Part shown: piece by piece, positions 1,653 through 29,256 of the stretch
How positions within the stretch are numbered: position 1 is the first letter of the stretch
How the letters are laid out: each line of letters opens with the position of its first letter
Source of the DNA: Candidatus Acidiferrum typicum
GTDB lineage: Bacteria > Acidobacteriota > Terriglobia > Acidiferrales > UBA7541
Reading direction: 5' to 3'
Assembly: GCA_025463055.1 (NCBI GenBank)
Contig: JAOAPV010000109.1
Span: 1-33,232, forward strand
Length of the DNA: 33,232 nt
Program-made: the position numbers and the translations under genes
Notes under the pieces: model-generated
The model's input: the letters and a program-made list of their open reading frames with translations, nothing else
Told to the model about the DNA's origin: nothing
Database searches by the model: none

Positions 1653-2804
1653 TTAGCGAATCCAGCCGCCACCCAGGACGCGTTCGCCATCATAGAACAC
1701 CGCGCCTTGACCGGAGGTGATAGCGCGCTGCGGAGCGTCGAACGCAATCTGCGCGTGCGTGTCATCCACGGGCGTGATAGTGGCTTCCGCAGGAACATGC
1801 TTGTGGCGGATTTTCACGGCGGCGCGCACCGGCTCCGCCGAAACTTGGTGCGATATCCAGTTGACGTCTTGCACGTCACAGGTGGAGGTCCGCAACGATT
1901 CGTCATCTCCGACTACGACGCGATTATTCTCGCGGTCGATCGCAACTACATACAGCGGCTTGCCTGCGGCGAATCCCAGACCTTTGCGCTGGCCGATGGT
2001 GAAATTATGCACGCCGCTGTGCTGTCCAACAACGACACCGTCTTCGGAGACAATCTCACCCTCGTTGTTCGATAAAGCCGCGCCGCGTTCCCGCGAATAC
2101 GCTTCGATGAACTGAACATAATTCCCGTTGGGAACGAAGCATAACTCCATGCTTTCGGGCTTATCGGCGACTGGCAAATTCGCCGCTCGCGCGGCGCCAC
2201 GCACTTCGTCCTTGCTCAGTTCTCCGAGCGGAAATTCGCTGCGCGCAAGCTGCTCTTGCGTCAGCCCCCACAGAAAATAAGATTGATCCTTGCTGTCGTC
2301 GCGAGCGCGCCACAATTCCCACCGCCCGGTCTGCTCATTGCGGCGGATGCGCGCGTAATGGCCTGTAGCCAGCCGCTCCGCGCCGATCTGACGCGCCATG
2401 CGCAGCAATGGCTCAAACTTTACATCGGTGTTGCAGTTGGTACAGGCGATGGGCGTGCGCCCGGCAAGATACTGATCCACGAAGGGGCGAATGACTCGCG
2501 CTTCAAATTGCTGCTCGAAATTAACGACGTAATGCGGAAAATTCAGGTGCTGCGCCACGCGCTTCGCGTCGTAGACGTCGTCGAGCGAGCAGCAGCGATG
2601 CTGTGCCGGCCCGTCACCCTGCAATTCCGGCAGGCGGCGCTGGTTCCAAAGCTGCATGGTCAGTCCGATAATCGGATGGCCTTGCTGCTGCAGCAGGGCC
2701 GCGACGGTTGATGAATCGACGCCGCCGCTCATAGCGACGGCAATCAGGCCGCTCTGCGGCTCGGCGCTCGCGGGTGAGGTATCGAATTGGGTTGCGCTGC
2801 TCAT
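1653..2804 (-). CDS. mnmA: tRNA-specific 2-thiouridylase MnmA
   Basis: MnmA adenylates U34 of tRNA(Lys/Glu/Gln) and transfers sulfur to give 2-thiouridine, acting in the cytoplasm. The 383-residue product has the PP-loop ATP site SGGVDSS at residues 26-32, the catalytic cysteine region [10 protein letters not shown] (Cys121/Cys124, of which Cys124 aligns with the first catalytic Cys), GHYARI at 148-153, and the second catalytic cysteine in MELCFVPNG (Cys222). The C-terminal region ([11 protein letters not shown] and the following beta-rich part) matches the tRNA-binding domains. Length is normal, with a slightly long N-terminus of about 20 residues. The gene lies 104 bases downstream of a cysteine desulfurase gene on the same strand, the expected sulfur donor. 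Confidence 0.95.
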
Positions 2805-23554: not shown

Positions 23555-23604
23555 GGCGCTCGTAAAGTCAAAAGCGCCCGCGAAAGTCCGCGGCCGCTAC
23601 AGGT
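23555..23604. repeat. REP-like palindromic intergenic repeat
   Basis: Between atpZ and atpI there is a nested palindrome, GGCGCT / AGCGCC, then CGCGAAAGTCCGCG. The segment GCGCCCGC-N9-CGGCCGCTAC (23574-23601 region) recurs with the same flanks inside the 3' coding end of nuoM (27668-27700), so it is a dispersed repeat rather than a local hairpin. Confidence 0.6.
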
Positions 23605-23744
23605 GCTAGTTCATCACGATTGCTCCCGATATAACGAATCGTTCCAATGTTGACGCTGCGTCTCGCACCGAGCGGCGGATTGCTTGGCTTACGCTGGCGT
23701 TCGGTGTTGCGGCCGGCGCGGCCGCGGCGATTGCTGTAAGCACG

Positions 23745-26065: not shown

Positions 26066-27526
26066 TTAGCGGCCGAGGAGGTTGGATTGGAGGACGAAGT
26101 TCAGGATGCGGTTGGGGAATAGGCCGAAATAGATGGTGCCTAGGACGGTGATAGTTAGGACGAGGTATACGGATAGGGGAAAGCTGACCACTAACGGCTT
26201 AGCTTCGGCGCTGGGCTCGCGCATGTACATCACGACGATCAGGCGGAGGTAGTAGTAGGCGCCGATTACGCTGTTAATGGCCATGAGGACCGCGAGCCAG
26301 ATTAGGTGCGAGTTTACGGCGGCTTTGAAGATGTAGAACTTCCCGAAGAAGCCGGCGGTAACGGGCAAACCGAGCAGGGACAGCAAGAACAGGGAGAGGA
26401 TCGCGGCCGCGCCGGGTTGGCGCTGGCCCAAGCCGGCGTAATCTTCGAGGGAGAGGTGCTTTTCGCCCAGGCCGCCCAGTTCGGAGACGATGGTGAAGGC
26501 GCCGACTTTAACCAACGCGTAGCTGACCAGATAGAAGAGCACGGCGGCATAGGCCGCGGAGGCGCCGCCTTCCGGATTTCCGGCGAGATAAGTGACGGAG
26601 GCGAAGGCTACCAGGATGTAGCCGGCGTGGGCGATGGAACTGTACGCAAGCATGCGCTTGACGTTGGTCTGCACAAGCGCGCCAAGGTTGCCGGCAAACA
26701 TCGTTAGCACCGCGAGGACCCAGAAGGCCCAGAACCAGAAATGCGTGGCGGCGGGAACGGTGGCGTAGATGCGCAGGAGCAGAGCAAAGGCGGCGGCTTT
26801 GGGTCAGGCGGAGAAGAGCGCCGTCACGGGGGTTGGTGCGCCTTCGTAGACGTCTGGCGTCCAGACCTGGAAGGGAGCGAGGGCGACTTTAAAGCCGAGA
26901 CCGATGAGGATTAGCGCTAGACCCAGCTTCAGCAACGTGCTGTTGGGGTCGACGGCGGCCATATTGGGGAGAAGTGTGGTGCCGGTGACTCCGTAGACCA
27001 GGGCGATGCCGTAGAGGAAGAAGGCGGTGGCGAAGGAGCCGAGGAGGAAATACTTCATGGCGGATTCGCTGGCTTTGAGGGAATCGCGGCGGTATCCGGC
27101 GAGGACGTAGCTGGAGATGGAGCTCATCTCCAGGCCGATGAAGGCGGTCAACAGCTCCTGCGCGGAGGAGAGCACGCCCATACCGGCGGTAGCGAAGAGG
27201 ACCAGGGCGTAGAACTCGGCGGGCTGCAGGCGCTCGCGCTCTAAATAGGGATCGGCGGCGAGCACTACCAGGAAAGCGACCAGGCCTACGAGGAGGTGGA
27301 AGAAGACGCTGAAGCCGTCCATCTGGATAAGGCCGAAGAAGGCGGGGCCGCCGGGATTGCCGGCGAAGATCGTGGCGGCGGTGCCCAGGCCGGTGCCTAG
27401 GATGGCGAAGAAGGTGAGGACCTGGCGGCTGCGCGTGAAGGGCTGGAGGAGCATTAGGAGGACGCCGAAGGCACACCAGATGGCTTCAGGGAGAACTCGG
27501 ATCAGGTCGTTGGTCTGGGGAATCAT
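26066..27526 (-). pseudogene. nuoN: NADH-quinone oxidoreductase subunit N, interrupted by an in-frame TGA
   Basis: NuoN is one of the three antiporter-like proton-pumping membrane subunits of complex I. The frame starts at 27526 (ATGA overlap with nuoM) and runs through LEMSSISSYVLAGYRRDSLKASE-type helix sequences and KVALAPFQVWTPDVYEGAPTP, broken only at codon 241, a TGA at 26806-26804 following ALFSA. The same frame continues at once with PKAAAFALLLRIY, then NVKRMLAYSSIAHAGYI and the rest to a TAG or TAA at 26066. Without the TGA it would be 486 residues, the usual length. The residue normally at this place is glycine (SxGPKAA), one base from TGA (GGA). TGA is a real stop elsewhere here (for example moaC), so this is a nonsense change or a sequence error. 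Confidence 0.92.
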
Positions 27527-29256
27527 GGGCGGGCGGCAGCCTTTGCTGGGGAATTGATTGAGGGATTGGGCTGTGCCGACGGCAGAATCACAAGCAGATC
27601 CCTCGCTTTGCTCGGGATGACAACTGGTGCGTTTACGGTAGAGGCTTGTGCGGGCGTTGACGCAAGGCGCCCGCCACGGTCGGCGGCCGCTACGGTTGCA
27701 CGTTCAGGACGCTGTGCTAATGGATGCACCACAGTCGCTTCTTGGGGGAAATTGCGCTGCATTTGGTCTAGGACATTTTGGGAGGGGGCTGCGAAGCGGC
27801 GCGTGAAGTAGGGCGAGCCGATGCCCATCCATAGGGTGACAACGGCCATGGTGGCGAGAATCCATTTTTCGCGGGGTGAGGCGTCCGGCAGGGTGCGATT
27901 TTTCTCTACGGTGACTTCGCCGAAGAACACGCGCTGGTAGGACCAGAGCAAGTAACAGGCGGAGAGAATCACTCCGGTGGCGGCCCATGCGGACCAGTTC
28001 CAATGCACCTGGAAGGTGCCGAGAAGAATCAGGAACTCGCCGACGAAGCCGTTGAGCATGGGCAAGCCGAGCGACGAGAGCGCTACGAAGAGGAAGAAGG
28101 CCGCGAGCTTGGGCATCGGCGTGGCGAGGCCGCCGTACTCGGAAATTTCGAAGGTGTGGCGGCGGTCGTAGAGCATTCCGACAAGCAAGAAGAGCGCGCC
28201 GGTGGAAATGCCGTGCGCGAGCATCTGGAAGACGGCGCCCTGCATGGAGATATTTTCAAACGCGAAGATACCAAGCACTACGAAACCGAGGTGGCTGACG
28301 CTGGAATAGGCAACGAGCTTTTTGAGATTGGGCTGCACGAGAGCAACGAGCGCGCCATAGATGATGCCGATGATGGCCAGCGTGGCGACTATCGGGGCGG
28401 CGCGATGCGAGGCGTTGGGGAAAAGCGGCAAGCAGAAGCGAATCATGCCGTACGTGCCCATTTTCAAGAGTACGCCAGCCAGAATTACGGAGCCGGCCGT
28501 GGGCGCTTCCACGTGGGCGTCGGGCAGCCAGGTGTGGAACGGGAACAGCGGCACTTTGATGGCGAAGGCGAGGAAAAACGCGAGGAAGAGGTACATTTCC
28601 TCGAGCCCGGTCACGCGAATGGCGCCGGATTGCAGCATCTGCTGAATCGCGGGCAGGTCGAAGGTCCCGCCCGGGACTGCGGCCGTGCTGAGATTGTGCA
28701 GCCAGATGATGCCGACGAGCATGAGGATGGAGCCGGCCATCGTGTAAAGGACGAATTTGACGGCGGCGTAGATGCGGCGCTCGTGGCCCCAGATACCGAT
28801 CAGGAAATACATGGGGATCAGCATCACTTCCCAGAAGAGGAAGAAGAGGAAGAGGTCGAGCGAGAGGAAGACGCCGACAACGCCGACTTCGAGCATCAGC
28901 AGCATTACGAAGAATTCTTTTACGCGGTGCTGGATGCTGTTCCAGGACGCCAACACGGAAATCGCAGTGAGGAACGTGGTCAGAATGACGAGGAACAGGT
29001 TGATGCCATCGAGACCGAGGTGATAGTTGATCGGCGGAACGTTGATCCACTTGGCGAATTCCTCGAGCTGATAGCCGGCGACGCCGATTTGGACTTTCGG
29101 GATCAGGAGCAGCGAGAAAAGGAATTCGACGGTGGCGATGGTGAGCGCTAGTCGGCGAATCCAGACGTGATCGTCGGCGCGGAGGAACAGCAGCGCCAGA
29201 CTGGCTGCGGCGGGGAAGAAGATGACGATGGTGAGCAAGTAGCTGCCGTGAAGCAT
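27523..29256 (-). CDS. nuoM: NADH-quinone oxidoreductase subunit M with repeat-derived C-terminal tail
   Basis: NuoM is an antiporter-like proton-pumping subunit of complex I. The 577-residue product begins at an ATG overlapping the nuoL stop (TAATG) and ends overlapping nuoN (ATGA). Conserved parts are YHLGLDGINLFLVILTTFL near the start, EVGVVGVFLSLDLFLFFLFWEVMLIPMYFLIG in pieces including the functional Glu, AFAIKVPLFPFHTWLPDAHVEAPT with the conserved Lys, and KKLVAYSSVSHLGFV. The usual protein ends near residue 510. Here about 65 more residues follow, low in hydrophobicity, and two parts match intergenic repeats (residues about 515-535 and 545-558, the latter reading VVIPSKARDLLVIL). Confidence 0.95.
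   Translation of the reverse strand: MLHGSYLLTIVIFFPAAASLALLFLRADDHVWIRRLALTIATVEFLFSLLLIPKVQIGVAGYQLEEFAKWINVPPINYHLGLDGINLFLVILTTFLTAISVLASWNSIQHRVKEFFVMLLMLEVGVVGVFLSLDLFLFFLFWEVMLIPMYFLIGIWGHERRIYAAVKFVLYTMAGSILMLVGIIWLHNLSTAAVPGGTFDLPAIQQMLQSGAIRVTGLEEMYLFLAFFLAFAIKVPLFPFHTWLPDAHVEAPTAGSVILAGVLLKMGTYGMIRFCLPLFPNASHRAAPIVATLAIIGIIYGALVALVQPNLKKLVAYSSVSHLGFVVLGIFAFENISMQGAVFQMLAHGISTGALFLLVGMLYDRRHTFEISEYGGLATPMPKLAAFFLFVALSSLGLPMLNGFVGEFLILLGTFQVHWNWSAWAATGVILSACYLLWSYQRVFFGEVTVEKNRTLPDASPREKWILATMAVVTLWMGIGSPYFTRRFAAPSQNVLDQMQRNFPQEATVVHPLAQRPERATVAAADRGGRLASTPAQASTVNAPVVIPSKARDLLVILPSAQPNPSINSPAKAAARP
27598..27618. repeat. Dispersed palindromic repeat inside nuoM 3' end
   Basis: ATCCCTCGCTTTGCTCGGGAT, an imperfect palindrome, is read on the minus strand as part of VIPSKARDLLVIL. 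This DNA pattern and its translation are familiar as a repeat in Acidobacteria and some other phyla (from memory, not searched). Confidence 0.6.
27668..27700. repeat. Second repeat copy inside nuoM 3' end
   Basis: GCGCCCGC-N9-CGGCCGCTAC followed by GGTTGC matches the repeat in the atpZ-atpI gap (23574 on), with conserved flanks and a variable centre. It encodes about residues 520-530 of NuoM. Confidence 0.6.

Follow-up and report, generated by a model that had tools for sequence, protein, structure and literature searches.

Mobile palindromes inside bacterial genes are already known. GTAG-tagged REPs, as described in PMC3733652, have a GTAG end and a short GC hairpin, occur as complementary-stem and loop-length variants, and form REPtrons with a gene for a REP-associated tyrosine transposase (RAYT); they are mostly intergenic and located near gene 3' ends, and intragenic copies are known. 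In that description, acidobacterial species figure only as carriers of TIR-flanked transposases (TIRYTs). The same source describes Rickettsia palindromic elements (RPEs), i.e., palindromes inserted in frame into genes whose products are likely functional, and mentions reported expression for some proteins bearing RPE-1, which is a longer repeat. RU-1, an enterobacterial small mobile repeat of 127 bp, is described as fused to the amidase ECA3499, with loss of the normal stop (PMC2759123), and QMITE2 (150 to 190 bp) as extending EnhC in Coxiella Dugway (PMC5896051). According to PMC12548453, the MIRUs of mycobacteria are operon-junction repeats at which the downstream gene is coupled with a -4-nt spacing, and they are said to insert at start codons, bringing their own ORF. 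Literature searches for repeats serving as coding sequence yielded these precedents, and among the papers listed for NuoM C-terminal extensions and for acidobacterial REPs or RAYTs, there was nothing specific beyond PMC3733652. The locus described here adds a well-documented member of this kind, which occurs in Acidobacteriota and in a complex I subunit and combines two stacked repeat families with an apparently parallel case.

The window (i.e., the whole 33,232-nt stretch of DNA that was analyzed) is contig C36 of a 5.33-Mb draft genome in 146 contigs, hereafter G000. Its nuoM gene (27523..29256, minus strand) encodes a 577-aa complex I subunit M with a long C-terminal tail, and the best named relatives of this protein come from metagenome-derived genomes with labels such as Acidobacteria gp2, Candidatus Acidiferrum typicum, and Candidatus Acidiferrales, so that G000 is presumably an acidobacterium of this group. 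The NCBIfam NDH_I_M model (TIGR01972) stops at residue 498 (profile position 485 of 486), and the best PDB chain aligns as far as residue 493; the remaining 79 residues (499-577; 27526..27762, minus strand) constitute the tail. A reading of this DNA made earlier from the sequence alone (the sequence-only reading) had put about 65 residues past the usual end; there is indeed an extension, longer than stated, and tails turned out to be usual in the genus. AlphaFold2 gave residues 504-511 and 513-577 a pLDDT of <50, without helix or strand, and the tail is predicted to be disordered. After residue 500, NuoM continues for 31 to 91 aa (median, 41) in 29 same-genus genomes and for 78 aa in G000; the tail as such is normal for the genus, and it is the content of the G000 tail that is unusual. 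Tails across the genus are variable and often rich in Ala and Pro. Most of those of the relatives finish in an ERLGxR-like stretch, the DNA of which contains a GAAAGG-like site approximately 15 nt upstream of the nuoN start, presumably the nuoN ribosome-binding site.

As the sequence-only reading had proposed, two parts of the G000 tail are encoded by dispersed repeats, and a genome-wide count found further copies of both in G000. Repeat A (27658..27701, minus strand; alignment and covariance model, 64.4 bits, E 4.2e-11) is a GTAG-tagged REP and is read in the NuoM frame as RATVAAADRGGRLAS. A second copy in the window (23565..23608, minus strand; E 6.8e-10) lies in the gap between the ORFs named from Pfam as ATPase_gene1 (atpZ-like) and ATP-synt_I (atpI), which bears out the earlier claim that one tail repeat is related to the repeat in that gap. 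In a window-wide repeat search, no direct-repeat family was longer than this pair; the others were presumed to be due to chance. A 308-nt tail query hit 43 places in G000 at E<=10, the strong ones mostly at query positions 125-178, and in blastn the tail repeat matched another G000 contig with 92% identity over 49 nt. The covariance model identified 32 copies in G000 at E<=0.1; of the 30 to which context was assigned (all but the two weakest), 19 are intergenic, 9 lie within a called ORF, and 2 overlap one in part. In a search of 61 genomes with stricter filters, in which weak matches are lost, A was found at E<=1e-6 in three genomes (i.e., 24 copies in G000, 2 in G022, and 1 in G025). A third G022 copy lies in the endonuclease IV gene. 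No Rfam family was matched anywhere in the window.

The gapless alignment of A comprised 22 copies, leaving out L017, which has an internal 5-nt deletion, and L023, which lies beside the copy of L003. Its consensus has a GTAG end and a GC hairpin with an 8-pair stem. GTAG is present in 19 copies, the exceptions being ATAG (twice) and GTAC (once). In the stem, 97.2% of the cells are paired, a level reached by none of 500 shuffles and compared with 26 to 63% in slid controls. One stem pair changes from C-G to G-C on both sides in 6 of the 22 copies, where shuffles average 1.6 and 0 of 500 reach 6; this is the only one of the eight pairs that varies on both sides, and the pair-count and pair-type measures do not exceed those of the shuffles, 443 of 500 of which attain them. 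For the window copy, the DNA fold z score was modest (-1.50).

A candidate source of A mobility is encoded on contig C119, where a tyrosine transposase matches NF047646 at 86.6 bits (cut-off, 80) and is thereby assigned to the RAYTs. Two copies of A flank its gene in the same orientation as the gene, one approximately 57 bp upstream and one over the last codons at the 3' end; the RAYT ORF (L156 [G000:C119:50500-58000], 2076-2750, minus strand) ends inside the latter copy and reads VAAADCGGRLL. This arrangement matches the REPtron anatomy given in PMC3733652, and the position of A on both sides of the gene suggests that A was most likely spread by this RAYT. Repeat A resembles the GTAG-tagged REPs in its GTAG end, its GC stem-loop, its dispersed and mostly intergenic copies, and its adjoining RAYT gene; the likeness to the 24 GTAG families of PMC3733652 is one of described features. 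Among the seven Y1_Tnp loci of G000 (L149-L155), six have neither A nor B nearby, and A adjoins only the C119 gene. Six of the seven reach the NF047646 cut-off, and one scores 76.8 against 80. A flanking position of B was ruled out at these loci (0 of 7), and no transposase was found for B.

Repeat B (approximately 27588..27625, minus strand; gapped pattern and blastn) is a short form, about 38 nt long, of a GTCATTCC...GGAATCTC palindrome family with the ends GTCATTCCGA and GAGGAATCTC, and it is read as VIPSKARDLL. A gapped pattern recovered six copies in G000 and none in the reversed control; a strict pattern allowing two mismatches found only two places, because the copies differ by indels, and blastn added further partial copies. 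A covariance model of the long form, built from 21 copies in the relative G009, matched three places in G000 at E<=1e-5. It scored the window copy weakly (19.4 bits, E 0.031 in a search of 63 loci), and the DNA of this copy folds no better than shuffles (z, -0.28), which led us to reject it as a strong hairpin. We assign it to the family because it shares the family ends and because the relative G022 has a long form at the orthologous place (34.9 bits). The VIPSKARDL part had been described as a palindrome; it does belong to a dispersed palindrome family, the long members of which are true palindromes, and the window copy itself is weakly paired. At E<=1e-5, the long-B model matched 41 of the 61 genomes, with 55 matches in G009, and matches were most numerous in G034 (76) and G035 (73). 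No B match was listed for G022 at this threshold in the 61-genome search; its NuoM copy was seen in a smaller search of NuoM loci. Nineteen of 21 copies examined in G009 are intergenic, one lies partly over a gene start, and only the one in NuoM is inside a gene. Two more B matches (L043:6267 and L044:6161) lie, by coordinates, approximately 1.5 kb downstream of nuoM.

Most of the NuoM tails compared lack both repeats. An ungapped scan of tails and gaps found neither A nor B in 36 distinct relatives (62 loci reduced to 37 distinct rows, with G000 as the 37th), and it missed the long B of G009, which needs gaps. Over 63 NuoM loci, including G000 and G022, the A model matched only these two genomes, and the B model matched only the tails of G009, G022, and, weakly, G000. 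Among the relatives, A was thus found in 0 of 36 distinct NuoM tails and B only in that of G009; the same tail was not seen in distant relatives, and both repeats are carried only by the sister genome, G022. This genome, which had no hit at the threshold of the first NuoM search, is 73% complete; a contig end truncates its NuoM, and its nuoN is 86% identical to that of G000 at the nucleotide level. The G022 tail contains A and B at orthologous places with conserved flanks and in longer forms: A has an additional 21 nt internally, and B has its complete double stem. Its frame is open in the part present and ends in an ATGA overlap as in G000, so that the earlier statement that the tail stays in the NuoM frame holds for both genomes. 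In total, the two tails differ in length by a multiple of three (21 nt in A, and a short B in G000 against a long one in G022), which is suggestive only; the tail indels allow alternative placements.

The tail of G009 NuoM has 91 residues and holds a long B (79.4 bits). This genome appears twice (L135 and L043), apparently as the same organism. In a NuoN protein tree, from which G011 was dropped for its short nuoN, the sister of G000 is G022 (100/99), and G009 falls together with G007 and G010 (98/95), the NuoM tails of which lack A and B; the G009 branch is long, which makes its position less sure. Because of this placement, the capture of B in G009 looks independent of that in G000 and G022. 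In the latter two genomes, the simplest account is that A and B were each inserted once before the split, since both repeats share their sites. The longer forms in G022, together with what appears to be a separate capture in G009, strengthen the reading of the tail as a product of repeat insertion.

The tail ends at an ATGA overlap of the nuoM stop and the nuoN start (27523..27526, minus strand). Among 37 distinct nuoM-nuoN junctions, 29 have TAAATG or TAGATG, 6 have TAATG, and 2 have ATGA (i.e., G000 and the distant L062); because the other forms prevail, the overlap is derived in the lineage of G000 and G022 rather than ancestral. The sequence-only reading had the tail keeping its ATGA coupling with nuoN: the overlap is there, and it is not one kept from the ancestor. 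We also considered the G000 nuoM 3' end as a frame-shifted ancestral end, with AAAGG offset by one, and rejected this, as G022 has CGC-CCA-TGA in the same frame. The downstream nuoN gene (26066..27526, minus strand) contains an in-frame TGA at 26804-26806, where all 34 other distinct rows and G022 have a Gly codon. Between G000 and G022, the dN/dS of nuoN is 0.089 before the TGA and 0.066 after it, and since constraint is equally strong on both sides, the TGA is either a nonsense mutation of very recent origin or an error in the draft sequence. Its presence weakens the coupling argument in G000.

Repeat A is found in the sense orientation in four genes supported by family matches (i.e., those for NuoM, endonuclease IV, an AMP-binding/PP-binding/acyltransferase protein, and the RAYT) and in antisense in the tail of an Rce1-like protein. 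In endonuclease IV (L175:1453-2646, minus strand), A lies in the basic C-terminal tail, which reads RATVAAADRGGRSSR; the G022 gene (L234) carries it at the same place and, as in NuoM, in a form 21 nt longer. In the acyl-ligase/acyltransferase (L180:580-3042, minus strand; domains from Pfam), the linker that joins the AMP-binding domain to the PP-binding domain reads PAAVAATSRGGRLSS, a diverged form. The length of this linker varies among the relatives' rows that span it (22 of 24), and a G022 contig begins inside A of the linker. The copy at the RAYT end reads RAPVAAADCGGRLL. A V/I-AAADRGGRL-type reading is common to NuoM, endonuclease IV, the RAYT, and L173, a short protein whose start is signal-like; it carries IAAADRGGRL and matched no family. 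The frame in which A is read is identical in all sense cases; of the two other sense frames, one would likewise be open, and the other runs into the TAG of GTAG. Two ORFs that contain A and lack a Pfam match (L158 and L169) look like shadow ORFs, and the position of A at the start of the L161 ORF may reflect a wrong start call. For B, a G000 copy called at an ORF start (L143; YjgF-like) probably lies ahead of where the gene really begins. The long-B model also matched in antisense over the endonuclease IV tail of G002 (L245:2617-2708, minus strand), which may carry an antisense B; the gene caller preferred the opposite ORF there.

These observations make it likely that two mobile palindromes, A and B, entered the pre-existing tail of NuoM in the common ancestor of G000 and G022 and were kept in frame. 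NuoM of this genus would already have ended in a disordered tail of variable length when the GTAG-tagged REP and B entered it, and both insertions would have left the frame open. The repeats would have been translated ever since, as the open frame suggests, because such a tail tolerates almost any sequence provided that the frame reaches the nuoN start. This lineage would also have lost the TAA that ancestrally preceded nuoN and gained the ATGA overlap. To judge from this overlap, translational coupling may act as a filter on the frame, and the filter may be just the avoidance of truncation or of uncoupling nuoN. The sequence-only reading had envisaged insertion near the gene end and subsequent capture into the reading frame; the insertion stands, and the capture of intergenic DNA does not, as the repeats entered an existing coding tail.

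It is improbable, in our judgment, that the repeat-coded tail was recruited to a function such as assembly, contact in the membrane arm, or mRNA stability and has been maintained by selection, acting either on the peptide or on the hairpins. The frame has remained open in G000 and G022 despite a nuoN dS of approximately 0.62. However, a neutral simulation of substitutions at this distance (d, 0.62) left the frame open in 24% of runs for the G000 tail and 11% for the G022 tail, and one antisense frame is likewise open across both tails, so that selection could not be concluded from the open frame alone. The dN/dS of the tail between the two genomes is approximately 0.57 (72 aligned codons, with an uncertain alignment in B), against 0.14 in the adjoining 68 codons that end the NuoM core and 0.076 in nuoN; with its predicted disorder and its large length changes between sister genomes, the tail is weakly constrained, fits a tolerated insertion better than a function, and gives no good sign of being selected as a peptide. 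The REP core of A, outside the 21-nt difference, is identical at 30 of 30 nt, which is less change than the synonymous rate predicts over about 10 codons (hand estimate, P ~0.006 to 0.05). This identity could be due to structure, gene conversion, or chance, and gene conversion or repeat turnover would preserve the core equally well.

The long and short forms of A could alternatively stem from separate later insertions at one site in G000 and G022, guided by a target-site preference, and the finding that both NuoM and endonuclease IV have 21 nt more inside A in G022 points in this direction. Against it, the tail between and after the repeats aligns, both repeats occupy the same places, and a loss of the 21-nt inner part or gene conversion would suffice; loop-length variants inside one GTAG family are described in PMC3733652. 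We hold separate insertions to be about as doubtful as a recruited function. That a low-complexity tail merely resembles the repeats by chance, or that the locus is misassembled, might be suspected from the variable and Ala/Pro-rich tails of the genus and from a draft in 146 contigs; given the E value of A in the tail, the blastn match on another contig, and both repeats at matching sites in G022, we regard this as extremely improbable. Insertion into an existing tail before the split of G000 and G022 remains the reading that we prefer.

The earlier comparison with the palindromes of Rickettsia was apt in principle, as in both cases a palindrome is inserted in frame into a gene that is likely working (the NuoM core is intact in G000); the likeness is by description only, and the repeats of the NuoM type differ in that they sit in disordered tails and linkers. 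In the RU-1/amidase and QMITE2/EnhC fusions, as far as these are described, and in NuoM alike, a known protein is extended at its C-terminus by a mobile element with a palindrome or inverted repeat; NuoM differs in the stacking of two short families in one tail and in the overlap of its gene with the following one. MIRUs share the position at an operon junction and the -4-nt spacing; unlike them, A and B lie within the nuoM ORF, 135 nt and 69 nt from its end, respectively, and do not form the overlap themselves. The locus provides a two-species example, set against repeat-free relatives, of selfish palindromes becoming incorporated into the coding frame of a core protein of respiration; a candidate transposase and a second case, apparently independent, accompany it. 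It raises the questions of how often disordered protein tails derive from mobile repeats and whether operon coupling decides the survival of such insertions, and it cautions that tails built in this way need not be functional. A more general scheme, in which overlapping operon junctions let repeats in an upstream subunit's disordered tail persist only where the frame runs open to the next start codon, tails across the genus are steadily rewritten by palindromes, NuoM (in two lineages) and endonuclease IV (in G000 and G022 and perhaps, as antisense B, in G002) are recurrent capture sites, and hairpins retained in the nuoM-nuoN mRNA tune the translation of nuoN, is speculative, and we would not expect it to hold as a whole, even if we give it somewhat more credit than a recruited function or separate insertions. 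Many same-genus genomes have two NuoM genes, approximately 75 to 81% and 51 to 54% identical to the G000 protein, and G000 has one NuoM match at E<=1e-100.
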